Assembly (NCBI GenBank): GCA_903865895.1
Contig: CAIPLM010000310.1
Location: forward strand, 1 to 64,000
Length of the DNA: 64,000 bases
Reading direction: 5' to 3'
DNA from: an uncultured Rhodospirillales bacterium
GTDB taxonomy: Bacteria; Pseudomonadota; Alphaproteobacteria; Acetobacterales; Acetobacteraceae
The notes below the pieces were generated by a model that had not been told where the DNA came from, ran no database searches, and was given only the letters and a program-made list of their open reading frames with translations. Each line of letters begins with the position of its first letter. Within the stretch, counting starts at the first letter, position 1. A program made the translations under genes and the position numbers. This document shows positions 58,128 to 63,888 of this stretch, in pieces.

Positions 58128-58505
58128 TCAGTCCCCCCGATACCAAGAAGGCCGCTTACAGCCCTCAGACAGGCGAAGATCGAGAATGGGATGCCGCAAC
58201 ATGGAAGCATCCCTCACCTGCGTGCCATCGAGCCTGAGTTCTTGCATTTTCCCGAGCCCTGCGATGGGCGCGAGGTCCCGCACCTTTGCCTTGTCGAGAT
58301 TGAGGCGTTGCAGGTTGGCGAGCCCGGCGGTGCCGAGACTTCCCTCCCGAAACCTACGGGTCGCTGTTGCCTGTATCACCTCATCCAACTGCGATATTGA
58401 AATGCCGAGACGAAAGAGCTCAGCAAGGACCTGTCCGGTGAAGTAAAAATTTCCGAGGAAATCTTCTTGCGCTGGAAACTCGGGCCGATCATTCCTCGAG
58501 CCCCC
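58128..58505 (-). pseudogene. Leucine-rich-repeat remnant in the +1 frame behind the STAND gene
   Basis: An open frame of 125 codons with no ATG or GTG start before a TTG at 58388. The translated sequence has clear LRR character: LANLQRLNLDKAKVRDLAPIAGLG, KMQELRLDGTQVRDASML, preceded by a helical stretch (GQVLAELFRLGISISQLDEVIQ). The frame opens at 58505, just inside the 3' end of the STAND NTPase gene, offset by one base. It therefore looks like the 3' part of a gene that lost its start, either the original C-terminal sensor of the STAND protein cut off by a frameshift, or a separate truncated gene. Confidence 0.55.
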
Positions 58506-60129
58506 TCACTCGTTGCAACTTGTCGCGGCAGTCATCCCCGGCCGCTGCGAGGTCAATGATGAATGTGGCTAACTCGGCATCATCGCGCAACAGACTTGGC
58601 GGCACCGGCTGAGGCTGGCACTGAAGCAGCGCCGCTGGCACCTGTCGCCGGACCGCTACCAGCACCGGAGGACTAGTGAAGTGGTTCCCGCCGATCACTC
58701 CACCACCCAGGACGATGCCGATCAGCAGAACCAGCGGCGCGGCGTAGGAGGCGAGGGTGCGCAGCGCCACCGCGCGACGGCGGCCGAGATAGGTCGCGAC
58801 GGCGCGGGCGACGAAGTCGTGCGAGAGTTCCCACACGCTCTGCGTCGCCTCCAGCGGGCGCGCCAGCCCGGCCTCAGCGAGCGCGATCAGCACCGCGCGC
58901 ACCTCCGCCGGGCGCAGCTTCGCCTCCTTCGCCAGTTCCGCCTCCGGCCTGGCCCGCTTGGTGCCCTCCTCGGTCAGCAGCCCGGCCAGCACGCGCGGCG
59001 CCCAGGCACGAATGGCGGGATTGTCGACCGCCTGCGCGACATAGTCCCGCACCAGACGGTTGGCCTCCAGCGAGGTGACGACGCTGCCGCCCCGCGTGGT
59101 CAGCACATGACCGAGCACGTTCAGCGTGATCGGGCGCACCCGGCCCGGCGAATCATCGTATTCGGCGGCGCTTTTGACCAGACGATCCAGCGCCTCGTCC
59201 TTCAGGCCGAGTTTCGAGCCTTTGACGAAGCCGCGCGCCGCGACTTCATTGAAGCGGCCGACCTGGAAGAAGTTGATGCCCTGCATCAGCTTCGGCAGCC
59301 CGATGTCATCCATCCCGGTCTGGTAGTCGCTGCGTAGCACCAGCAGCAGCTTCAACCCGGCGAGCGGGCGCTGTCCGAGGTCGTTCACCAGCGTGGCGAA
59401 CCCTGCGTGACGCTCGGGGCTGCCGAGGATGATGAACTCCTCGAACTGGTCGAGCACAAGCAGCAGTTTGCCGCTGGCGTGTGCGACGGCGGCTTGCAGG
59501 GTTTCGCGAAGCGGGACCGATCCATCGGTTGCGCCCAATACTGTGCGCAGCGCCGCATCGGCATCCGCACCGGCACGCACCGGGGAGATGACCCAGCCCT
59601 TTGCCAGCATGGCGGGGAGGACGAAGGCGTTGAGCAGCGAGCTTTTACCGGCGCCGGAATCGCCTGTCAGATAAAGCGGTGTGGCGTCGGCGTGGGTCAG
59701 CCAGCCGAGGGCGCGGACATGCGCCTGATCGGCGCGCGCGAAGGCTTTGCGATCCGCGTCCGTGGCGAGGTAGGGGGTGATGCGAAAATACCCTGTCGGA
59801 ACGGCGGCCGGCTTAATCGCGAGGTCCATCGCCGCCTTGCGGTTACGCGCCGCTCTCCATTCGTTGGCAAGCTGCAGCGCGATGACCAGCGCGGGCAGGC
59901 CGAACAGCAGGGTGTTGTGCAACCAGGGCCAAGGGAGCCCGAGACCAAAATATTGGAGTGCCAGATCGGCACCCCTGGTCGAGGCAAGAACCAGCATGAT
60001 GCTGGCGAGCAACACCGCCCACCGCCCGAGCAGCTTGCCGACGAAAGAACCGCGCACCGCCTTGACCGCCGCGGGGTCCATCCCCGGCATCCTCGGCAGC
60101 CCTCCACCCAGGGCGGTCTCGACGGCCAT
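58489..60129 (-). CDS. Membrane-anchored STAND-type NTPase with a spanin-like periplasmic tail
   Basis: A 546-residue protein of unknown function. Two membrane helices near the N-terminus (about 36-52 and 70-88) precede a cytoplasmic STAND-type NTPase: Walker A GDSGAGKS at 156-163, Walker B LLLVLDQFEE at 222-231, LLVLRSDY at 262-269 and the closing WELSHDFVARAV at 433-444. A third helix at about 458-480 would put residues 485-546 in the periplasm. That tail (VPAALLQCQPQPVPPSLL...LAAAGDDCRDKLQRVRG) resembles phage Rz1/o-spanin-like proteins in its Cys, Pro and DCRxKL pattern. STAND proteins act as sensors or switches, including in phage defence; a defence role here is inference. An LRR remnant follows in the next frame. 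Confidence 0.75.
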   Translation of the reverse strand: MAVETALGGGLPRMPGMDPAAVKAVRGSFVGKLLGRWAVLLASIMLVLASTRGADLALQYFGLGLPWPWLHNTLLFGLPALVIALQLANEWRAARNRKAAMDLAIKPAAVPTGYFRITPYLATDADRKAFARADQAHVRALGWLTHADATPLYLTGDSGAGKSSLLNAFVLPAMLAKGWVISPVRAGADADAALRTVLGATDGSVPLRETLQAAVAHASGKLLLVLDQFEEFIILGSPERHAGFATLVNDLGQRPLAGLKLLLVLRSDYQTGMDDIGLPKLMQGINFFQVGRFNEVAARGFVKGSKLGLKDEALDRLVKSAAEYDDSPGRVRPITLNVLGHVLTTRGGSVVTSLEANRLVRDYVAQAVDNPAIRAWAPRVLAGLLTEEGTKRARPEAELAKEAKLRPAEVRAVLIALAEAGLARPLEATQSVWELSHDFVARAVATYLGRRRAVALRTLASYAAPLVLLIGIVLGGGVIGGNHFTSPPVLVAVRRQVPAALLQCQPQPVPPSLLRDDAELATFIIDLAAAGDDCRDKLQRVRGLEE

Positions 60130-61285: not shown

Positions 61286-61417
61286 CCCAGCCCCCTTGCC
61301 AATCCCGCCACCAACCCTTCGCCGGCGGTTGAGCGCAGTCTTGTTTCATAGCGGAACGAGGTTCTTCGGTCGACGGACCCTGCGTTGCAGGGCCCGCCCG
61401 GGGCATTTGGCGATCAT

Positions 61418-61709
61418 CGACCTCTCTTGCTCCCGTGTCCTCCGCGACCGGTCCCGATGTTGCCGCGGGATTGCCGTGCGGCCGCATGTGTCCATGCATG
61501 CCTTCGATCGCCCGGTGCTCGTCGGCGTGCCTCTTGCGACGGTTGCTGATGCGCTGTGCACGCCGGTCTGGGTCTATGGCGGCACCATGCGGGCGCGGCT
61601 CAGAGGGTCTCAAGCTGTGCCAGCCGGGCGCGATCCGCGGGGGCATTATGTGTTGAGGGGGAATGATCATCGCGCCGTACTCAGCATCTTCGCCAATGGC
61701 AGCGCCTGA
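61418..61709 (+). pseudogene. Decayed partial duplicate of the 5' part of lysA
   Basis: The stretch aligns base for base over long runs with codons 1 to about 95 of intact lysA at 62566 (for example TGTCCTCCGCGACC, CATGCATGCCTTCGAT, GGCACCATGCGGGCGCGGCT in both). The start codon is lost, at least one single-base deletion near 61470 breaks the frame, and the PLP-binding lysine codon of GTG-AAG-GCG has become AGG. It ends in a TGA. Nothing after codon 95 is present. Confidence 0.88.
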
Positions 61710-61899: not shown

Positions 61900-62307
61900 A
61901 TGAAACACGTAACACGCATCCTGGGAGCCGCGGCTGTGATTCTCGCTAGCCTGCCGGGGCTTGCCCTCGCCGGCGAGAAGCAGATCTGCAACCAGTCTTC
62001 GTTGCCTATCACGGTCCAGTTGACCCCTCGCCTGGGCTCCAATCCCGGTGACGGCGACCTCGCGATCGTCGGTGCTTCGCTGGCAGCGAACTCCTGCACC
62101 TCCGTTATCTATAGCGGGTCCACCGATCCCTATCTGAATGATTTCAAGGTTCTCGTGCGCGTCGGCAAAAGTTTCGTCGCGCACGGCATGAGTGTCGGCA
62201 AGAACGATCGTTCGGGGCTCGTCGATCAGGCGCTCAACCTGAACAGCAAGGTCGACATCAACGTCAACACGAACGGTTATAGCATCGCTATGGCGTGGCA
62301 TAACTGA
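61900..62307 (+). CDS. Small secreted protein of unknown function (135 residues)
   Basis: The product has a clear signal peptide (HVTRILGAAAVILASLPG) with a likely cleavage site after ALA, leaving about 110 residues. The mature part has two Cys (QICN and NSCTS), is rich in Asn, Ser and Val, and looks like an all-beta domain. AGGAAGGG upstream of ATG 61900 is a good ribosome site. No family was recognised. It lies alone in an AT-rich island between the lysA fragment and lysA, which suggests arrival by transfer. Confidence 0.75.
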   Translation: MKHVTRILGAAAVILASLPGLALAGEKQICNQSSLPITVQLTPRLGSNPGDGDLAIVGASLAANSCTSVIYSGSTDPYLNDFKVLVRVGKSFVAHGMSVGKNDRSGLVDQALNLNSKVDINVNTNGYSIAMAWHN

Positions 62308-62565
62308 TACTCTGCGTGGCTCGGCGGGAGGTTTTCCGAAACTTTCTCGCCGTTACACGCAGTACAGTACGGCGTTTTTTGACGTCGTCCTCCCCCACCC
62401 GCAAAGTTGGGCGCGGCACACGGCATCTGGCGGGGTCGCTGCGTCCCATCCCAAGCCAGCGCCTCTGCCGTTCTGCCGGCCGCCGGAGGGGGGGGTCGTG
62501 TTTGCAGGTGTGGGCCACGCGGCAAATTGCTTGGCGCCGGGCCGGGGCGTGGCTACTCTCCCCCT

Positions 62566-63888
62566 ATGGCCTCCCTCGCTCCCCTGTCCTCCGCGACCGA
62601 TCCCGACGTTGCCGCGCTGATTGCCGCGCGGCCGCATCTGTCCATGCATGCCTTCGATGGCCTGGTGCTCGAGGGCGTGCCGCTCGCGGCGATTGCCGAT
62701 GCTCTGGGCACCCCCGTCTGGGTCTACGGCGCCGGCACCATGCGGGCGCGGCTGAAGGAACTGCAAGCGGCGCTCGCCGGTCTCGATGCGCATGTGCATT
62801 ACGCGGTGAAGGCGAATGACCATCTCGCCGTCCTCAGCGTTTTCGCGCGCGGTGGCGCCGGGGCCGATGTGGTGAGCGGCGGCGAGTTGCTGCGCGCCCG
62901 CAAGGCCGGCGTGGCGGCGGACCACATCGTCTTTTCCGGCGTGGGCAAGACCGAGGCCGAGATCCGGCTCGCGCTGGGGGAAGGCATCTTCCAGATCAAC
63001 GTCGAAAGCGCGGCCGAACTCGCGATGATTTCGCAGATCGCCACCGCCATGGGCCGCATGGCGCAGGTCGCGCTGCGGGTGAACCCCGATGTCGATGCCG
63101 GCACCCACGCCAAGATCACCACCGGCAAGGCCGAAAACAAGTTCGGCATTCCCTATGACGACGCGGCAGCGCTCTACGCCCACGCGGCCACCCTCCCCGG
63201 CGTGCAGCCGGTCGGCATCGCGCTGCACATCGGCAGCCAGATCCTCTCCACCGCGCCCTACCGCGCCGCCTTCGCCCGCGCCGCCGAGCTGATCCGTACG
63301 CTCCGCGCCAACGGCCAAACGGTCAGCCGGATGGATTGCGGCGGCGGCATCGGCATCGGCTACCAGGATGAGCCGGGCGCCTCCCCCGCCGCGCTGGCCG
63401 GCGCCATGCGCGCGGCATTCGGCGAAATGGGCCTGCAATTGATGGTGGAACCCGGCCGCTGGCTGGTCGGCCCGGCCGGCCTGCTGCTCGCCTCGGTGAT
63501 CCTCACCAAGGGCGACGAGCGCTTCGTGGTGATCGATGCCGCGATGAATGATCTCGTCCGCCCCGCGATGTATGAGGCCTGGCACGGCATCGTCCCGCTG
63601 GCCGCCGGCAACGCGGTGGGGGCCACCTCCCTGGTCGACGTCGTCGGCCCGATCTGCGAATCGAGCGACACCTTCGCCACCTCCCGCGCGCTGCCGCGCC
63701 TCCCCGCCGGGTCGCGCGTCGCGATCCTCGATGCCGGGGCCTATGGCGCGGTGATGAGCTCCACCTACAACGCCCGCGGCCTGCCGCCGATCGCCATGGT
63801 CGATGGCGATCGCTGGTCGGTGATCCGCCCGCGCCAGGATGTCGAGGCGATGTGGGCCAACGAGACCATCCCGGATTTCCTGCCGTGA
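62566..63888 (+). CDS. lysA: Diaminopimelate decarboxylase
   Basis: Last step of lysine synthesis: PLP-dependent decarboxylation of meso-diaminopimelate. The 440-residue product has the cofactor lysine K82 in VHYAVKANDH, ARGGAGADVVSGGEL, the phosphate-binding region with SRMDCGGGIGIGY, EPGRWLVGPAG, and the substrate-site GPICESSDTFA, with the Cys contributed across the dimer. ATG 62566 gives the normal family N-terminus; the frame is open upstream but the sequence is non-coding. Its TGA overlaps the GTG of the next gene. Confidence 0.96.
   Translation: MASLAPLSSATDPDVAALIAARPHLSMHAFDGLVLEGVPLAAIADALGTPVWVYGAGTMRARLKELQAALAGLDAHVHYAVKANDHLAVLSVFARGGAGADVVSGGELLRARKAGVAADHIVFSGVGKTEAEIRLALGEGIFQINVESAAELAMISQIATAMGRMAQVALRVNPDVDAGTHAKITTGKAENKFGIPYDDAAALYAHAATLPGVQPVGIALHIGSQILSTAPYRAAFARAAELIRTLRANGQTVSRMDCGGGIGIGYQDEPGASPAALAGAMRAAFGEMGLQLMVEPGRWLVGPAGLLLASVILTKGDERFVVIDAAMNDLVRPAMYEAWHGIVPLAAGNAVGATSLVDVVGPICESSDTFATSRALPRLPAGSRVAILDAGAYGAVMSSTYNARGLPPIAMVDGDRWSVIRPRQDVEAMWANETIPDFLP

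Follow-up and report, generated by a model that had tools for sequence, protein, structure and literature searches.

The open reading frame (ORF) at positions 58489–60129 of the window, the 64,000-nucleotide stretch of contig CAIPLM010000310.1 from an uncultured Rhodospirillales bacterium that was analyzed here, joins a STAND-type NTPase to a tail resembling a phage outer-membrane spanin, and it raises the question of whether this joint was built for a purpose. A preliminary description had proposed a cytoplasmic sensor wired through the membrane to a spanin-like effector, or a decoy for phage lysis proteins. The comparisons reported below lead to a different answer: the ORF is very probably an insertion scar and no purpose-built weapon, left when a phage fragment was captured within, and truncated, a gene of the nSTAND1 NTPase-TM-LRR type. 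The parts of the ORF are as follows.

58489..60129, minus strand: chimeric ORF of 546 residues, with two TM helices, an nSTAND1 NTPase, a third TM helix and a spanin-derived tail.
58804..59682, minus strand: nSTAND1 NTPase domain, residues 150–442, with Walker A GDSGAGKS and Walker B LLLVLDQFEEF (PF20703 profile; AF2 model and Foldseek).
58687..58743, minus strand: third hydrophobic helix, residues 463–481, the last portion in common with the sister copies (hydropathy; alignment with L002 and L005).
58492..58677, minus strand: Rz1-like o-spanin mature-domain codons, residues 485–546, without a lipobox, followed by the stop TGA at 58489–58491 (PHROG_456; shuffles; alignment A2).

The layout given in the preliminary description, of two N-terminal helices, a complete P-loop NTPase and a third helix, was borne out. 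The Pfam profile PF20703 (nSTAND1) matches residues 150–442 with an E-value of 8e-17 and a score of 62.3 bits, as compared with a curated cut-off of 27.1; the closing motif ELSHDFVARAV follows the Walker A and B motifs, both of which are conserved across alignment A3. The N-terminal hydrophobic helices lie at about residues 33–51 and 70–88 and, like the third at 463–481, are placed by hydropathy only. From the basic residues that flank them, again by hydropathy, the NTPase is predicted to be cytoplasmic and the tail periplasmic, which agrees with the periplasmic rather than cytoplasmic tail assumed earlier. An AlphaFold (AF2) model of the chimera, built from five sequences, has a good NTPase core (pLDDT mostly 70–94) and a disordered tail with a pLDDT of about 30, so that no meaningful fold comparison can be made for the tail. 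With the NTPase model, Foldseek returned Cdc6/ORC, Apaf-1 and NLRs among its first matches, with E-values of about 1e-6 to 1e-3; a sequence search of solved structures gave no match, and no NTPase relatives were found on plasmids. The NTPase part has a dN/dS of 0.19 relative to the sister copy, which is indicative of purifying selection. The gene was therefore under selection before the insertion, and this signal mostly reflects pre-insertion time.

The tail is Pro-rich and has Cys residues at its positions 20 and 50, the second in GDDCRDKL, as the preliminary description had noted, and the resemblance to an o-spanin that it had proposed is upheld by profile comparison. The last 62 residues alone match PHROG_456 ("Rz-like spanin") with an E-value of 2.7e-5 over positions 30–85 of 102, the region C-terminal to the lipobox. 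Against a spanin profile made from eight o-spanins of other genomes, with the tail itself left out, the tail scores 74.4 bits, and the best of 2000 shuffles scores 12.4. This likeness to Rz1 is far beyond chance, and the tail is truly spanin-derived. Because 46% of random 62-codon frames in the window are open, the open frame of the tail is uninformative by itself; its sequence is informative. The o-spanin mature domain runs complete to its natural stop and retains the conserved Cys and the Pro-rich part, but in alignment A2 it starts just past the lipobox region, and the signal peptide and lipobox Cys of an o-spanin are absent; the o-spanin features applied here are those set out in PMC6139136. 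GC3 is 0.68 in the tail as compared with 0.83 in the NTPase, and the insert that contains the tail is lower than the NTPase part in both GC and GC3.

This insert, which is absent from L002, L005, L006 and other relatives, has definite boundaries and lies next to the remainder of the interrupted gene.

58676..58682, minus strand: first copy of the direct repeat ACTTCAC, at the upstream insert edge.
58445..58682, minus strand: 238-bp insert of phage lysis-gene DNA, comprising 231 bp and one 7-bp repeat copy.
58438..58444, minus strand: second copy of the direct repeat ACTTCAC, at the downstream insert edge.
58580..58672, minus strand: last 30 codons and stop of an Rz-like i-spanin frame that overlaps the Rz1 frame and is +2 relative to it (Rz frame in homologous prophages).
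58445..58492, minus strand: 16 codons that may open the following phage gene, with an ATG that shares bases with the Rz1 stop in ATGA (sequence reading).
58128..58444, minus strand: detached LRR end of the interrupted gene, in a different frame from the NTPase (LRR_4; alignment to the LRR start of L002 and L005).

In the DNA alignment, the window tracks L002 and L005 to position 58683, after which come ACTTCAC, 231 bp of foreign sequence, a second ACTTCAC and then the sister gene again. When the flanks are joined without the insert, they form a single in-frame NTPase-TM-LRR ORF of 587 residues. The probability that a 7-bp match would occur by chance at a given pair of points this far apart is about 1.6e-4. 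An insertion sequence or MITE was considered and rejected, since what lies at the two edges is a 7-bp direct repeat, and such inverted repeats as were found are located away from the insert ends. The host genome has no second copy of the insert that could be found, and the search for an intact related spanin elsewhere in it gave only weak PHROG_456 matches (E-values of 0.04 or more). The intact frames on either side of the insert suggest that the insertion is recent.

Read in the +2 frame with respect to the tail, the insert stays open between codon 2 and a stop at codon 32. In homologous prophages Rz occupies the same frame, with the stop at codon 31 (L012), 29 (L013), 28 (L014), 31 (L015), 28 (L010) or 22 (L020); in four other loci the Rz stop lies earlier. 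The ATG and 16 codons that extend to the repeat are perhaps the start of the next phage gene, for which no relative was found. The insert is built like part of a phage Rz/Rz1 pair, consisting of the end of the Rz frame, the mature Rz1 domain with its stop and a possible start of the following gene. The 30-codon end of the Rz frame is all that was found of an i-spanin partner gene near the tail, and no holin or endolysin gene is present among the neighbors examined. Matches were obtained in 14 of the 299 family-level genomes, the window's own included. Those inspected are mostly short ORFs with a lipoprotein signal start and an overlapping Rz-like ORF, located after endolysin- and holin-like genes; L003 is one such o-spanin relative of the tail, and the weakest match, L024, does not look spanin-like. 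For the most part, the relatives of the tail are o-spanin genes from prophages of the same bacterial family, where they lie in lysis cassettes made up of endolysin, holin, Rz and Rz1. Related cassettes are also present on viral contigs, with three distant viral contigs among the matches. Protein matches of the tail in phages are weak only, and no DNA match to a source phage was found among 50,697 phage records. In a class-wide search of 385 genomes with the spanin alignment, the other spanins detected were confined to open frames no longer than 284 codons, and no further NTPase-TM-spanin fusion was seen either there or in the 299 family-level genomes.

The partners of the NTPase in its relatives are of other kinds. 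The sister-species copies L002 and L005, which are probably from one and the same genome, are 89–90% identical to the chimera up to residue 484, after which their third TM helix leads directly into an LRR; the same direct transition is present in L006. L026 and L027 combine nSTAND1 with an LRR, L008 ends in an LRR-like repeat, and L007 and L009, from gammaproteobacterial MAGs, have by sequence reading an FGE-sulfatase-like domain in place of the LRR. None of these relatives ends in a spanin, contrary to the expectation that homologues would share the domain order of the chimera. In L026 (907–3579, minus strand) a DUF4062 domain lies N-terminal to the NTPase, and the reading frame of L009 appears to be broken. 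In the window, the LRR is no longer in the same frame as the NTPase, which ends at the stop at 58489; the remnant gives a weak LRR_4 match (E-value of 0.015), and the first start codon in its frame is a TTG at 58388. Synonymous divergence between the window (58682–60129) and L002 takes values of 0.45, 0.32 and 0.17 along the NTPase gene and of about 1.4 in the LRR part, a drop and subsequent jump that suggest recombination or fast evolution of the sensor.

Some further features were observed around the gene. Downstream of the LRR remnant, between 56978 and 58035, there are four copies of a 55-nt intergenic repeat that are 60–91% alike to the reference copy. On the other side, the plus-strand ORF at 61296–61709 looks by eye like the opening ~90 codons of the gene at 62407–63888 for a PLP decarboxylase, as if it were a partial, decayed duplicate, and a small plus-strand ORF at 61900–62307 likely encodes a signal peptide and matches no Pfam family.

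These results can be arranged into the following sequence of events. The ancestral gene would have encoded an ordinary inner-membrane nSTAND1 NTPase-TM-LRR protein, which presumably sensed through its LRR. A 231-bp phage or prophage fragment, extending from within an overlapping Rz/Rz1 pair to beyond the Rz1 stop, would have entered at the junction of the third TM helix with the LRR, either creating or exploiting the 7-bp direct repeat, and its o-spanin frame would by chance have been in register with that of the NTPase. The product now consists of the NTPase and TM helices with 62 residues of a periplasmic o-spanin domain, its translation ending ahead of the LRR. Of all this, the comparisons show directly the homology, the insert and where it begins and ends, the frame of the empty site and the absence of the LRR from the ORF. 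The probable effect would be loss of the LRR sensing part and hence a sensor that is inactivated or deregulated; truncation probably inactivated sensing, and we infer that the chimera is inactive. Since it lacks both a lipobox and a nearby i-spanin partner, the chimera cannot act as a normal o-spanin.

The fragment may have entered by illegitimate recombination, or it may be what is left of a prophage that decayed after integration at a 7-bp att core. No Ku gene was detected in the genome, which makes canonical end joining unlikely; another illegitimate route or a prophage remnant is probable. The latter departs from the preferred reading in the route alone: with ACTTCAC as its 7-bp overlap, a tyrosine integrase would have inserted a prophage, of which nearly everything except the end of the lysis genes was then lost. 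The phage origin of the insert and the direct repeat at both edges are what this route would produce, but no integrase is present, the putative att site does not extend past 7 bp, and what remains has the look of an unbroken run of lysis-gene sequence reaching both repeats. We regard this variant as possible but doubtful. An artefact of assembly would be compatible with a draft genome of 392 contigs and an insert that occurs in one genome only; however, the two flanks are parts of one gene, share its orientation and give an intact frame when joined, and misassembly does not usually produce an internal chimera of 231 bp flanked by a short direct repeat, which makes this very unlikely.

Against the reading of the ORF as an insertion scar stand its open chimeric frame and the purifying selection on the NTPase, as well as the failure to find a source phage or a homologue of the presumed next gene in the searches above; the insert is found in one genome only. 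A function for the chimera as a decoy or an effector is nevertheless judged highly improbable overall. As a decoy, the o-spanin domain, tethered to the inner membrane, would bind, on the periplasmic side, the Rz that an infecting phage makes, block spanin assembly and delay lysis, a role for which a mature domain complete to its natural stop, with its conserved Cys and Pro-rich part, and a predicted periplasmic location would be suitable. The chimera was seen in a single genome only, however, the bounded insert also carries phage-like sequence beyond the stop, and, according to PMC5295617, the lysis-defective lambda Rz1 alleles tested for dominance left lysis unblocked and were not dominant negative; a decoy role is very unlikely. 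Still less credible is the fusion of sensor and effector, in which the NTPase would release or arrange the tail so as to disrupt the envelope and kill the infected cell. The domain order and topology permit it, but the chimera is missing a signal peptide, a lipobox and any anchor in the outer membrane, it has no partner gene for an i-spanin, and PMC5295617 describes the lipoylated Cys20 of lambda Rz1 as essential. Moreover, the architecture is not conserved, the normal partner in the family being an LRR, and the tail is a bounded 238-bp insert whose flanks rejoin to the LRR frame.

As an insertion scar, the locus preserves a short phage lysis-gene fragment caught within the gene of an NLR-like NTPase; the fragment is clearly bounded, and close relatives retain the empty site. 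The case illustrates that a seemingly new domain architecture can be such a scar, which calls for caution when defense systems are sought by domain order. A functional chimera would instead show how a host gene can take on a phage lysis part in one step and, were it a decoy, how a single insertion can give a domain a new use.

No credible match to a known anti-phage system was found with the models of PADLOC-DB, the best having an E-value of 0.007 over 22 residues around the P-loop, and no description of a STAND-spanin fusion was found in the open-licence literature searched. Published work shows that a link between NLR-like systems and lysis is possible; it contains no spanin fusion and does not amount to homologous evidence. 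The predicted fold of the NTPase is similar to Apaf-1/NLR/Cdc6-type STAND and AAA folds at the Foldseek E-values given above, but the overall TM-score is low, and the chimera is membrane anchored with different flanking domains. With the Rz1-like o-spanins of PHROG_456 (L003, L004, L010, and L012–L015) the tail shares the VPxxLLxCQ...P.PP and AGDDCRDKL sequences, the natural stop and the overlapping Rz frame, whereas the chimera lacks their signal peptide, lipobox Cys and lysis cassette and carries the domain fused in frame after a TM helix. The closest counterparts are the nSTAND1 NTPase-TM-LRR proteins encoded by Acetobacteraceae and related bacteria (L002, L005, L006, and L026), which have a similar N-terminal TM pair, NTPase motifs and third TM helix; they run on into the LRR, which in the chimera is cut off by the phage insert and its stop.
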